Assembly (NCBI GenBank): GCA_020216745.1
Contig: JAIWNQ010000258.1
Coordinates: 1-10,000 of the forward strand
Direction: 5' to 3'
Source of the DNA: Candidatus Hydrogenedens sp.
GTDB lineage: Bacteria; Hydrogenedentota; Hydrogenedentia; Hydrogenedentales; Hydrogenedentaceae
DNA length: 10,000 bases
In this document: piece by piece, positions 4,600 to 7,761 of the stretch
Position numbering within the stretch: position 1 is the first letter of the stretch
How the letters are laid out: each line of letters opens with the position of its first letter
Notes under the pieces: generated by a model
The model's database searches: none
What the model was told of the DNA's origin: nothing
The model's input: the letters and a program-made list of their open reading frames with translations, nothing else
Position numbers and translations under genes: made by a program

Positions 4600-4692
4600 G
4601 GAGAGATGGCCGAGTGGTTGAAGGCGGCGGCCTCGAAAGCCGTTGTGCCGGTTTACCCGGCACCGTGGGTTCGAATCCCACTCTCTCCGCCA
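4600..4692 (+). tRNA. tRNA-Ser (anticodon CGA)
   Basis: A complete class II tRNA of 93 nt including an encoded CCA. The acceptor GGAGAGA (4600-4606) pairs perfectly with TCTCTCC (4682-4688), followed by discriminator G and CCA (4690-4692). The D arm is GCC...GGC. The anticodon stem GCGGC/GCCGT encloses the loop CTCGAAA with anticodon CGA at 4634-4636, reading UCG. The long variable arm is TGTGCCGG...CCGGCAC. The T arm is GTGGG-TTCGAAT-CCCAC. The long variable arm and anticodon fix the identity as serine. The 3' half has a decayed direct copy 1924 bp downstream, so this tRNA may have been an integration target. Confidence 0.97.
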
Positions 4693-4980
4693 GTAAAAAA
4701 AGTATTAAAGTAATAGCTTCGTAGATGAATAAGAGGGTTATATAAAAGTGGGGAGGAATCCAGGTTTTAAACTTTGGGAATATTGAATTGATTTTGTTGG
4801 TAAAAGTAAAGAACTGGAGATATTCATCTCGAAATGTCTAAAGGGGAAGAGGGGTCAAATAATAATGAATTGAATTATGCATGCTATTTATTCAACATTG
4901 TATTTTATTGATGTACCTGGTTAAAATGTTGGAGGATAAATATAATTTTTTTGACCTGTTTATTTATTTGCATTTTGATT
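4693..4980. other. Non-coding stretch between tRNA-Ser and the palindromes
   Basis: No convincing ORF, hairpin or terminator is visible here. The tRNA is followed by GTAAAAAAAG rather than a GC hairpin with a T-tract. TTGACC at 4951-4956 resembles a -35, but no good -10 follows at 16-18 bp. A 26-codon ORF starting near 4926 runs into the first palindrome and is probably chance. If the region to the right is an integrated cassette, this could be its left flank. Confidence 0.35.
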
Positions 4981-5040
4981 TCAGTTACTATTATAATAGG
5001 AACTGATATTAAAAACAGTTACTATTATAATAGGGACTGA
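4981..5040. repeat. Left pair of 24-bp palindromes (copies 1 and 2)
   Basis: Copy 1 (4982-5005) and copy 2 (5016-5039) both begin CAGTTACTATTATAATAGG and end AACTG or GACTG. They are separated by 10 AT-only bases, so the period is 34 bp. Each is an almost complete inverted repeat around the centre TATTATAATA, with one A:G mismatch; copy 2 also has one T:G. The core gives a perfect TATAAT on both strands. Copy 2 ends 6 bases before the ATPase start codon, and its right arm contains AGGGA (5032-5036), the only Shine-Dalgarno-like sequence for that gene. The pair could be an operator, a recombination site or terminal repeats. Confidence 0.85.
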
Positions 5041-5045
5041 AAAAT

Positions 5046-6530
5046 ATGGATAAAAACAAGATAGAACAGTTTTATATGAAATGGCAGTTAACTCTTCCGA
5101 AAAGAATTGAAGGGTATATTTATAATGAAAATAAGCAACTTCTGCCAATTCGATATATTTTCCCCAGATTTATAAATTTAATTGAGCGATTCTTAAAAAA
5201 TGAGATTTCAGAAATAGAAAAGATTATATTGATGCCGGGTATCAGAGGCATAGGGAAAAGCACCCTTTTATCTCAAATATATACTTTAGAGAAATTTTTA
5301 TTACCTGATAATAAAAGTATCCTAAAGAATCTCGGAAAATTGGATGAAAGATTATATCTTGATGTAAGTCAGTTGCATGCAGAACAGATTTCGTTACATG
5401 ACTTTTTCCAATTTTATGAGGAAATGAAAGATATTCATTTTGAAAAGCCAAATAAAAAAATATTAATTCTTCTTGATGAGGTCCATTTTGATGATAGATG
5501 GGGATTGTTTTTGAAAAATCTTTTTGATAGGACTAAAGGTCATAAAGATGTATTGGTAATAGCAACAGGTTCTTCCGCTTTGCACATAGATATAATTCCC
5601 GATTTAGGAAGACGTTCCGATATATGGGAAATGTTCCCTTTGGATTTTAGTGAGTATTTACTTTTAAAGTATGGCAAAGATATTGTCAAACATGGTTTTT
5701 CAGAAAAATTGCGGACGATAATATTTAGTTCTTCAACTGCAAAAGAAGTATTTAATAAATTATATAAGGAAAAGAAGCAAGTAGATAAATATTTTGTTAA
5801 TGAAGTTCCTGTTAAAGCAGAAGAGGACTTTTTTGAGTTAGGAGGGTTTCCCTCATCGCTAAAAATAGAGAATAAACAAAAAGCAATAGAGAAAATAAAG
5901 AGTGTAATAGATGGTATTATCGCCAAAGATATTCTTAAATTAAAGAACTTTGAGACACATACTGTCGCAAAAATTACTGATTTGTTATATCTTTTAGCTC
6001 AGTCTGATTTGATAAGTTATAGTAAGCTTCAATCAGTGCTTCAAATAAATAGACCTGAAACATTAGACAACCTAATTGAGGTTTTGATGTTAAGTGGACT
6101 GTTACTTAAAGTAAAGGCTTATGGGACAACTTATGGACCTACACGAAAAACACCGAAATACCTTTTTATAACCCCTTCCCTTCGTTGTGCAATTTTAGAT
6201 AACAATTTCTACGGTGGTATCGAAGGGAAGAAATTAGAAGATTATTTTGCATTAATCTTTCAAAAACATATAAGAAGAGGAAGTAGTATCGGTTCCCCCA
6301 AATTATCATTTGATATGGCTGAAGGTGGTGCCGATTTTATACTAACCCTGCAAGATAAAAGTAGCGTTGTAATTGAAGTCGGTTTTAATAAAGAAGATGT
6401 AAAACAAGTAGAAAAAACAATGCAAAAGGCAAAGAATTGCAAATATGGACTGGTATTTGGAAGTAACAATCTGGATTTAATCAATAATTCTATTGTAAAA
6501 ATACCCTTACGATTTCTACTACTTATTTAA
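5046..6530 (+). CDS. AAA_14/DUF4143-type ATPase with PD-(D/E)XK-like C-terminus
   Basis: A 494-residue P-loop ATPase of the AAA_14 plus DUF4143 architecture, a family common as orphan, horizontally moving genes whose function is not established. Walker A is GIRGIGKST (65-73). Walker B is ILILLDE (139-145) with the catalytic Glu. A sensor-like ATGSSA lies at 173-178. The family's LGRR...WEMFPLDFSEYL stretch covers about 187-205. A helical, winged-helix-like region occupies about 290-380. The C-terminus (about 395-494) has the restriction-endonuclease-fold pattern ADF(x)nVVIEVGFNK, with Asp430 and Glu444. The usual ExK lysine is replaced by Gly446, so nuclease activity is doubtful. The start at 5046 relies on a weak AGGGA inside the adjacent palindrome; Met11 is an alternative. 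The gene stands alone, is visibly more AT-rich than the exporter operon, and is bracketed by palindrome pairs. This suggests a mobile or accessory cassette. Confidence 0.85.
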   Translation: MDKNKIEQFYMKWQLTLPKRIEGYIYNENKQLLPIRYIFPRFINLIERFLKNEISEIEKIILMPGIRGIGKSTLLSQIYTLEKFLLPDNKSILKNLGKLDERLYLDVSQLHAEQISLHDFFQFYEEMKDIHFEKPNKKILILLDEVHFDDRWGLFLKNLFDRTKGHKDVLVIATGSSALHIDIIPDLGRRSDIWEMFPLDFSEYLLLKYGKDIVKHGFSEKLRTIIFSSSTAKEVFNKLYKEKKQVDKYFVNEVPVKAEEDFFELGGFPSSLKIENKQKAIEKIKSVIDGIIAKDILKLKNFETHTVAKITDLLYLLAQSDLISYSKLQSVLQINRPETLDNLIEVLMLSGLLLKVKAYGTTYGPTRKTPKYLFITPSLRCAILDNNFYGGIEGKKLEDYFALIFQKHIRRGSSIGSPKLSFDMAEGGADFILTLQDKSSVVIEVGFNKEDVKQVEKTMQKAKNCKYGLVFGSNNLDLINNSIVKIPLRFLLLI

Positions 6531-6555
6531 TTTTTAGGAAATAATAGAAATCAGA

Positions 6556-6612
6556 CTCAAAACTGATTGTGCCAGTTTCCACGTCATTGTGGGCTTACGT
6601 ACCCCATTCCTA
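6556..6612 (+). pseudogene. Decayed 3' half of a tRNA (Ser-like)
   Basis: This stretch aligns without gaps to 4632-4688 of the tRNA-Ser, at a constant offset of 1924. The anticodon loop CTCnAAA, TTGTGCC, GTTT and GTGGG are shared. By hand count 21 of 27 bases match from 4643 to 4669, and 34 of 57 overall. Similarity stops at the anticodon loop and the 5' half is absent. A 6-bp stem AATCAG/CTGATT (6549-6554, 6563-6568) surrounds an 8-nt loop that includes CTCAAAA, so a decayed tRNA-Leu(CAA) is an alternative. The T-stem and acceptor no longer pair, so it cannot be functional. A direct 3'-half duplicate is what integration at a tRNA gene leaves behind. Confidence 0.6.
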
Positions 6613-6707
6613 CCTAATGAAAAGTTGAGAAAAAATTTTTTTATGTTTTATGATGCAAATTAATTATTGGACAGAATCTTTTATAAGAGTGAGAAGGATT
6701 TTAAAAA

Positions 6708-6772
6708 TTCAGTCCCTATTATAATAGGAACTGAATTTTATTTCAGTTTCTATTATAATAATAATTAAAACT
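6708..6772. repeat. Right pair of palindromes (copies 3 and 4), inverted relative to the left pair
   Basis: Copy 3 (6710-6733) begins CAGTCCCTATTATAATAGG and ends AACTG. With flanking bases (6708-6735) it forms 13 of 14 pairs. On the minus strand it differs from left copy 2 by one base. Copy 4 starts at 6744 with CAGTTTCTATTATAATA and is degenerate, but its outer arms AGTTT (6745-6749) and AAACT (6768-6772) still pair. The gap between copies is 10 AT-only bases, as on the left. The TATAAT at 6754-6759 could serve as a -10 for the dehydrogenase at 6796, though no -35 is evident. Copy 3 followed by TTTTATTT could also end transcription of the ATPase gene. Confidence 0.8.
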
Positions 6773-6795
6773 AAAAATATTAATGGTGAGATTAA

Positions 6796-7761
6796 ATGAA
6801 ATCACTTTTTTTTGATGGACGAGATTTATTTATAAGAGAAATGGATATTCCTATTCCAGGACAAGGAGAAGTATTAATTCGGGTATTAATGGCGGGGATA
6901 TGTAAGACGGATTTGGAGATTGTGAAAGGGTATATGGATTTTAAGGGAATTTTAGGACACGAGTTTGTGGGTGAAGTAGTTGAAGCGGAAAATAAAAGTC
7001 TGATTGGTAAACGAGTTGTCGGAGAGATAAATTGTCCCTGCTATCGTTGTTCATTTTGCCTTCAAGGTATGTCGAACCATTGTCCAACCCGAACTGTGCT
7101 CGGGATAAATAATAGAGATGGGGTTTTTGCAGAATATACTACACTGCCTGAAAGGAATTTGCATATTGTTCCGGATAGTGTGTCTGATGAAGTAGCAGTA
7201 TTTACGGAGCCCGTTGCAGCGGGATTTCGCATCCTCGAACAAATACAATTTAATCCTGAAGATTTCGTAGTTGTGTTGGGTGATGGACGAATGGGACAGA
7301 TTATTTCTCAAATTATAAATCCTTATGTCCGAAGATTAGTATGTGTAGGGAAACATACGAAAAAACTGTTCTTATTAAACATAATTGGAATTGATACATG
7401 TTTATTAGACTATTGGAAAGATAAAAATTTAGATGTCGTAATAGATGCCACTGGAAATCCTACAGCACAGTCTTTGGCATTAGATAGGTTACGACCTCAG
7501 GGGACATTAGTCATAAAAAGCACTACAGAAGAACAAAATACATTAAACCTTTCAAAATTGGTTGTGGACGAAATTAAAATTATTGGTTCTCGTTGTGGTC
7601 CGTTTGGACCAGCATTAAAAGCATTATCAGAAAAGAAAGTTGAAGTAGAATATATGATAAGTTATAAGTTTGCTTTTGAAGATATAATAAAAGCATTTGA
7701 GATTGCACAAAGTAAAGACTGCCTTAAAGTATTAATAGACTTTCGAAATAAGAAAGGATGA
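6796..7761 (+). CDS. Zinc-dependent MDR-family alcohol/polyol dehydrogenase
   Basis: A 321-residue medium-chain dehydrogenase. The GroES-like catalytic domain has Cys36 (GICKTD), His55-Glu56 (GHEF) and Glu138 (TEPVA) as catalytic zinc and relay residues. The structural-zinc lobe is C-x2-C-x2-C-x7-C at Cys82, 85, 88 and 96. The Rossmann domain has GDGRMG (162-167). The end of its second strand reads CVGKHTKK, with no Asp or Glu; basic residues there favour NADP(H), an inference. It is slightly shorter than the usual 340-350 residues. The start at 6796 has GGTGAG 5 nt upstream. The next gene starts 4 nt after this stop with its AAAGGA inside this ORF, so the two are translationally coupled. Pairing with an aldose-epimerase-like protein suggests oxidation of a sugar or polyol. 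The substrate is unknown. Confidence 0.88.
   Translation: MKSLFFDGRDLFIREMDIPIPGQGEVLIRVLMAGICKTDLEIVKGYMDFKGILGHEFVGEVVEAENKSLIGKRVVGEINCPCYRCSFCLQGMSNHCPTRTVLGINNRDGVFAEYTTLPERNLHIVPDSVSDEVAVFTEPVAAGFRILEQIQFNPEDFVVVLGDGRMGQIISQIINPYVRRLVCVGKHTKKLFLLNIIGIDTCLLDYWKDKNLDVVIDATGNPTAQSLALDRLRPQGTLVIKSTTEEQNTLNLSKLVVDEIKIIGSRCGPFGPALKALSEKKVEVEYMISYKFAFEDIIKAFEIAQSKDCLKVLIDFRNKKG

Follow-up and report, generated by a model that had tools for sequence, protein, structure and literature searches.

A conserved pair of palindromes with a 34-bp period at the promoter of AAA_14 ATPase genes, a probable self-controlled and horizontally transferred single-gene module

The DNA studied here, hereafter the window, is a stretch of 10,000 nucleotides from a contig of Candidatus Hydrogenedens sp. 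(JAIWNQ010000258.1), which contains a gene for a 494-amino-acid AAA_14 protein, an ATPase that is the sole match of its kind in its own genome (G000). This gene is directly preceded by two 24-bp palindromes, and a palindrome pair is likewise placed just upstream of the start codon in relatives of the ATPase, where the period of 34 bp is kept while the sequence of the pair diverges together with that of the protein. The pair overlaps the promoter, and the gene is absent from sister genomes. These observations are probably best explained by a horizontally transferred single-gene module, in which the ATPase gene would carry its own promoter-operator, bound and repressed by its own product.

Relatives of the window ATPase were gathered with two conserved-word patterns, the best 80 of 212 being kept, and many of their loci are contigs of metagenome-assembled genomes (MAGs); a contig scan with the single window protein as query returned no relatives. 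Homology to the window protein served to place the ATPase starts in these loci. The spacing test covered the 140 bp upstream and 20 bp downstream of each start and took the best of 37 periods, from 24 to 60. Of 79 loci, five whose gene starts were cut (L031, L069, L078, L086 and L088) were left out, as was L032, which was too short. A period of 34 was best in 51/74 loci, as against 13/232 regions upstream of other open reading frames (ORFs) of the same loci, and in 22/33 representatives sharing less than 60% identity, as against 0/35 downstream regions. The identity between the two copies alone places 34 first in 22.1/33 representatives, and 13 of the 16 protein clusters show the period. Moreover, a scan of 75 loci gave 17 strong 34-bp pairs (score of at least 25), ten other periods giving 0-2 each; in 16 of these pairs the inner centre lies 6-59 bp before the ATPase start, the 17th being the right-hand pair of the window.

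The operator sequence itself varies from cluster to cluster, as illustrated by CAGTTACTATTATAATAGTAACTG (L014), CAGTTTGTATTGTAATACAATCTG (L025), ACTATATCACTAGAGTAATATAGT (L048), TCTATTATAGTTAAGTATAATAGA (L064) and TCTATGGTAATGCATTACCATAGA (L074), and its distances follow those of the protein (rho 0.57, 0/999 permutations, in the 40/73 loci with an operator score of at least 22). A contact between two bound dimers would preserve the spacing, which would explain how a fixed period goes along with a drifting sequence. The operator was rejected as a general trait of DUF4143 ATPases, given that the 34-bp signal appeared in 0/29 ordinary DUF4143 genes of the relatives (one of 30 being too short) and the operator in 0/5 plasmid members.

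A sigma-70-like promoter with at most one mismatch was found in 21/72 loci, compared with 5/226 control regions, and TTGACA/TATAAT boxes at the same threshold precede 10/14 clade-1 loci. The -10 box falls at the centre of one of the two palindromes: the inner one in the window, L013-L017 and L024, the outer one in L022, L023 and L025. In six loci (the window, L014, L015, L016, L017 and L024) the ATG follows the -10 box by 11-24 bp, which implies a very short leader. Since the sites cover the -10 box, and often the -35 box, repression is a likelier outcome of their occupation than activation.

With regard to the protein, the window ATPase scores 74.6 bits against the AAA_14 profile, above the Pfam cut-off of 27, but 26.8 bits against DUF4143, below the cut-off of 28.1, and a PF13635 profile search of its own genome gave no match; for these reasons it was filed as a divergent relative of the DUF4143 proteins rather than as a plain member. 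The profile PDLC04787 of PDC-S01, a single-gene phage-defence candidate of PADLOC with an ATPase and a PD-(D/E)XK domain, matches residues 55-464 (E 2.5e-26), whereas no NCBIfam family was matched and the search by sequence for relatives with solved structures gave no convincing match. The GK of Walker A and the DE of Walker B are intact in 73/73 aligned proteins, and the order of helices and strands in the structure model predicts a winged helix, the candidate operator-binding domain (Table 1). In the nuclease-fold tail, the position expected for the catalytic Lys is taken by Gly in 71/73 proteins, which counts against mobility supplied by the ATPase through cutting; that the ATPase might itself supply mobility was one option of the initial annotation.

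Table 1. Coordinates of the ATPase gene, its domains, the predicted promoter and the four palindromes in the window
Feature	Position	Strand	Remarks
ATPase gene (AAA_14, divergent DUF4143; PDC-S01-like)	5046..6530	+	494 amino acids
Walker A region, residues 64-73 (PGIRGIGKST)	5235..5264	+	GK invariant, 73/73 proteins
Predicted winged helix, residues 306-385, candidate operator-binding domain	5961..6200	+	Helix/strand order in structure model
PD-(D/E)XK-like tail, residues 386-494	6201..6527	+	E-x-G replaces E-x-K
Predicted promoter: CTGATA (5003-5008), 17 bp, TATAAT (5026-5031)	5003..5031	+	2 mismatches in total to TTGACA/TATAAT
Outer palindrome, upstream operator pair	4982..5005	+	11/12 mirrored positions
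Inner palindrome, upstream operator pair	5016..5039	+	10/12 mirrored positions; 34 bp from outer, 6 bp before ATG
Inner palindrome, right-hand solo pair	6710..6733	-	11/12 mirrored positions; read towards ATPase gene
Outer palindrome, right-hand solo pair	6744..6767	-	Degenerate, 3 mismatches to pattern

The arrangement of the window had been described as two 24-bp palindromes at each end of the ATPase region with 10-bp, AT-only spacers and inner copies that differ in one base on opposite strands, all of which was confirmed (spacers at 5006-5015 and 6734-6743). The palindrome centres lie 34 bp apart in both pairs, and only the outer right-hand copy falls below the mirror-symmetry cut of 10 of 12 positions. 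Four palindrome matches in the window compare with a mean of 0 in 200 dinucleotide shuffles, and they are the only sites at three mismatches or fewer in the 3.13-Mb assembly (86% complete), where the backwards-pattern control gave 1. The palindromes are thus not spread all over the genome, and a reading as dispersed repeats was rejected, also on the basis of the genomes of the phylum and of those holding clade-1 loci. The inverted orientation of the two pairs stands as far as an alignment of 84% over 69 nt goes, but they also align directly at 83% over 53 nt, so that 'inverted' is a weak statement for palindromes. On the minus strand, the degenerate copy is the outermost one of the right-hand pair, and the spacer of this pair resembles those of virus pairs; the pair lies 28 bp before the start of an ADH gene, and no trace of a decayed second ATPase was detected behind it in 6531-6800.

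The initial annotation regarded both pairs as composite terminal inverted repeats of a possible mobile cassette. Copies of each locus's own palindrome were sought up to 600 bp downstream in the window and in 44 relatives with an operator score of at least 20, the full 600 bp being available in 42/45 loci. The best copy matches 23/24 bases in the window, 20 in L081 and 16 or fewer in the rest, apart from the borderline L083 (17/24), the shuffled best being 16. In L081 the copy is part of a weak pair with the 34-bp period, which lies 156-230 bp after the ATPase gene, points the same way as the upstream pair and precedes a second AAA-type ORF of 424 amino acids. A second pair occurs in the window and in L081, and an inverted right-hand pair was found only in the window. 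As a separate observation, in the Omnitrophota contig L022 a different AAA-type ATPase frame was seen by eye soon after the window-type ATPase, downstream of position 7473.

Sixteen DNA comparisons were made among the relatives, ten of which share little beyond the upstream pair and the ORF, while similarity extends further in six (L048/L055, L051/L053, L039/L044, L039/L040, L040/L044 and L087/L089). In the two most informative ones, L013/L014 and L018/L019 (88% and 91% identity, with different surroundings), the shared DNA begins with the outer palindrome in the former and 18 bp ahead of it in the latter, and reaches either just to the end of the ORF or some 27 bp at most beyond it; at lower identity, sharp ends of similarity may merely reflect constraint. 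The contigs L051 (Roizmanbacteria) and L053 (Beckwithbacteria) share 3,357 bp at 99.8% and may come from one genome binned twice. Terminal inverted repeats at which the gene would be moved by a transposition machinery would agree with the two inverted-looking pairs that flank one gene in the window, with the horizontal transfer of the gene and with the presence of a pair on both sides in L081. In 43/44 relatives, however, no downstream copy stands out clearly from shuffles (L083 is borderline), the second pair of L081 is in direct orientation, and the DNA shared by the closest relatives stops at the stop codon or shortly after it. The segment between the pairs is indeed free of a transposase, as had been noticed, the ATPase being the only ORF of more than 130 amino acids, and the nuclease tail lacks its usual Lys. 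The terminal-inverted-repeat cassette is therefore unsupported, and we consider it very improbable.

The part of the cassette proposal that did hold is horizontal mobility, on the grounds of absence from close genomes, intermixed phyla in the protein tree and changed surroundings. No match to the window ATPase was found in 3/3 genomes of the same genus, so the segment is indeed missing in relatives, and among 100 genomes searched (its own included) eight had a match, the seven others at 27-35% identity over part of the protein. On the other hand, relatives at 51-70% identity (among the best 80 of 212) occur in MAGs named Actinomycetota, Patescibacteria, Moranbacteria, Shapirobacteria, Altarchaeum and Omnitrophota, and the closest protein records reach up to 86% identity. 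In a tree of 73 proteins, which left out L047 and L059 as they gave no clean translation, the phylum labels require 38 changes for 30 groups, with a minimum of 29 and a shuffled mean of 45.3. Four of the nearest relatives (L013-L016) lie on contigs shorter than 8 kb, where binning errors are possible, and L017, L018, L019, L022 and L024 lie on contigs of 18-39 kb. The ATPase was not found by pattern in IMG/VR, and a phage collection gave one distant match of 25% identity.

The ATPase gene of the window resides between tRNA-Ser(CGA) and the ADH-like gene, in an interval that varies within the genus. This interval measures only 44 bp in G001, whose ADH is 53% identical to that of the window; in G002 it holds a helix-turn-helix protein, a DNA methylase and a DUF6544 protein; and in G003 a methylase-SNase protein and an MjaI-type restriction enzyme are followed by a solo palindrome pair (on two contigs with seemingly continuous ends). 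The accessory genes at 4693-6795 and its counterparts (L112, L113, L114 and L115) thus differ from one genome of the genus to the next. Behind the ATPase gene, at 6556-6609, the 3' half of the tRNA-Ser (4600-4692) also recurs in degenerate form, with a score of 38 compared with a shuffled best of 25 (0/500 shuffles); this copy was not called as a tRNA by ARAGORN or Rfam and may be an old integration scar.

Pairs were also sought beyond the ATPase loci. Among 68 genomes of the phylum, a pair at one mismatch or fewer is present only in that of the window, and the solo pair of G003, which has no ATPase remnant beside it, appears at two mismatches. Of the 14 genomes with clade-1 loci, eight hold a single pair, located at the ATPase, and six show none at two mismatches; one genome also gave one backwards-control match. 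In IMG/VR, four contigs contain a 34-bp pair, and spacings of 33 and 36 bp gave 0; with a fifth contig from a single-palindrome scan, the 34-bp pair is present in 5/5, although single backwards-control matches also occur. No ATPase was seen on these five virus contigs, which are fragments; an empty result of the pattern search there carries no weight. Virus ORFs of 141, 62 and 38 amino acids start 6, 6 and 7 bp after the pair (L118, L125 and L127), which matches the distance of the window ATPase, whereas in L117 and L126 the distance to the next ORF of at least 35 amino acids is 142 and 105 bp. Of the 19 relatives of the 141-amino-acid protein, two carry the names Patescibacteria and Omnitrophica. 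The palindromes of one other clade gave 17 single matches among viruses, none with a 34-bp partner, and those of another clade gave 0. Two further features of the virus contigs are a tRNA-like sequence, uncalled by ARAGORN, directly followed by the pair in L118 (8190-8069, minus strand), and two identical RNA-ligase-like ORFs in L125 (7113-9561), with an extra palindrome copy near the second. Viruses might have captured the same promoter-operator before small genes, the ATPase acting in trans as a switch in host-virus conflict that would silence or sense incoming virus genes through the operator by which it controls itself; this extension is tentative and we hold it to be rather unlikely. As to the right-hand pair of the window, its best reading is an extra solo operator, which may be what is left of another module or a second target; it may also be a trace of recombination at solo pairs.

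The favoured reading, that of a transferred gene under its own control, would work as follows. Two palindromes 34 bp apart, with the promoter inside them and followed within a few bases by the start codon, would constitute a built-in promoter-operator. The ATPase would bind both palindromes cooperatively, probably through its winged helix and as two dimers in contact, and the bound protein would hold down its own synthesis until released by its nucleotide state or by a ligand. Finally, gene and operator would travel jointly between phyla, and between bacteria and archaea. As no other gene belongs to the travelling unit, the ATPase gene is the natural source of the binder, and binding of the ATPase to its own pair is most likely; the effect of the pair would be repression. 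Among the three roles first envisaged for the ATPase (supplying mobility, being a passenger mobilised in trans, or controlling its own expression through the palindromes), the last is the one supported. Several data weigh against this reading: another period is best in 23/74 loci, clusters 3, 4 and 16 lack the 34-bp period, and mirror symmetry alone gives the weaker signal of 9.2/33 representatives; no good sigma-70 promoter precedes the three Altarchaeum loci; confidence in the model of the winged helix is low to moderate, with a local pLDDT (predicted local distance difference test) of only about 43-70; the unit is not always minimal, as L039, L040 and L044 share 460-570 bp past the gene and L087/L089 even more; and the solo pairs in G003, the viruses, the window and L081, free of an ATPase of their own, indicate that the pair is not tied to this gene alone.

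These solo pairs, which precede unrelated virus ORFs and in the window stand beside the ADH gene, could also be expected if a different host regulator bound the pair, with the ATPase as merely one of its targets. Such a regulator would hardly explain why, in many phyla and two archaeal lineages, the period is kept and the pair co-diverges with the ATPase; moreover, pairs are single in 8/8 of the clade-1 genomes where they are found and missing at one mismatch from 67/68 genomes of the phylum, so that we regard this explanation as unlikely. A site of replication, partition or recombination, with an Orc1/Cdc6-like ATPase at its own origin-like or joining site and the solo pairs as vacant sites for modules to recombine into, gains slightly from the second pair of L081, but the overlap with the promoter, the fixed short distance to the start codon in many members and in 3/5 viruses, and the lack of replication genes adjoining the window gene make it quite unlikely. 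Every palindrome could likewise fold as RNA, and the virus pairs of L117 and L126 lie more than 100 bp from the next ORF, as hairpins acting as a terminator, an attenuator or a stability element might do. In the six loci with short leaders, however, the -10 box inside the inner palindrome would leave the bulk of the pair upstream of the transcript, and hairpins have no need of a fixed period, which renders such a function scarcely credible.

The 34-bp geometry makes this branch of ATPases testable, as it predicts the DNA bound by each protein, and it provides natural matched sets of proteins and sites for reading the specificity of winged helices. It also suggests how a single gene can be kept in check once it has moved to another phylum, and it singles out virus genes equipped with the same switch. 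A literature search, mainly at the level of titles and abstract openings, found no published account of a palindromic operator of DUF4143 ATPases.

Among known systems, palindromes adjoin a single gene in REP/RAYT (REPIN) as they do at the window ATPase. REP sequences are, however, described as having a high copy number, compared with two pairs here in one genome and one in eight others, and the window unit holds no HUH transposase. Mobile genes with a palindromic operator in their promoter are also known from restriction-modification controllers, toxin-antitoxin operators and RptR; unlike these autoregulated mobile defence genes, the window unit has no separate regulator gene, and the ATPase would regulate itself. 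The layout of an AAA+ core followed by a lid and winged helix resembles that of the archaeal ATPases 2QEN (PABY2304) and 2FNA (SSO1545), although identity is 15-18%, 2QEN aligns over residues 22-385, and the tail is missing in the aligned range. Ordinary DUF4143 genes of the relatives differ from the window branch in having no 34-bp operator. Finally, the window branch departs from PDC-S01 in its length of about 490 amino acids, its sub-threshold DUF4143 score and its tail without the usual Lys. The window ATPase would be a candidate for a role in phage defence, a label borrowed from PDC-S01; PDC-S01-like ATPases are reported to rank among the most frequent prokaryotic candidate defence genes, most of which await validation (PMC12988326). 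PDC-S01 is also described as transferred across domains as a single gene (PMC12988326), and the window ATPase is likewise a single gene.
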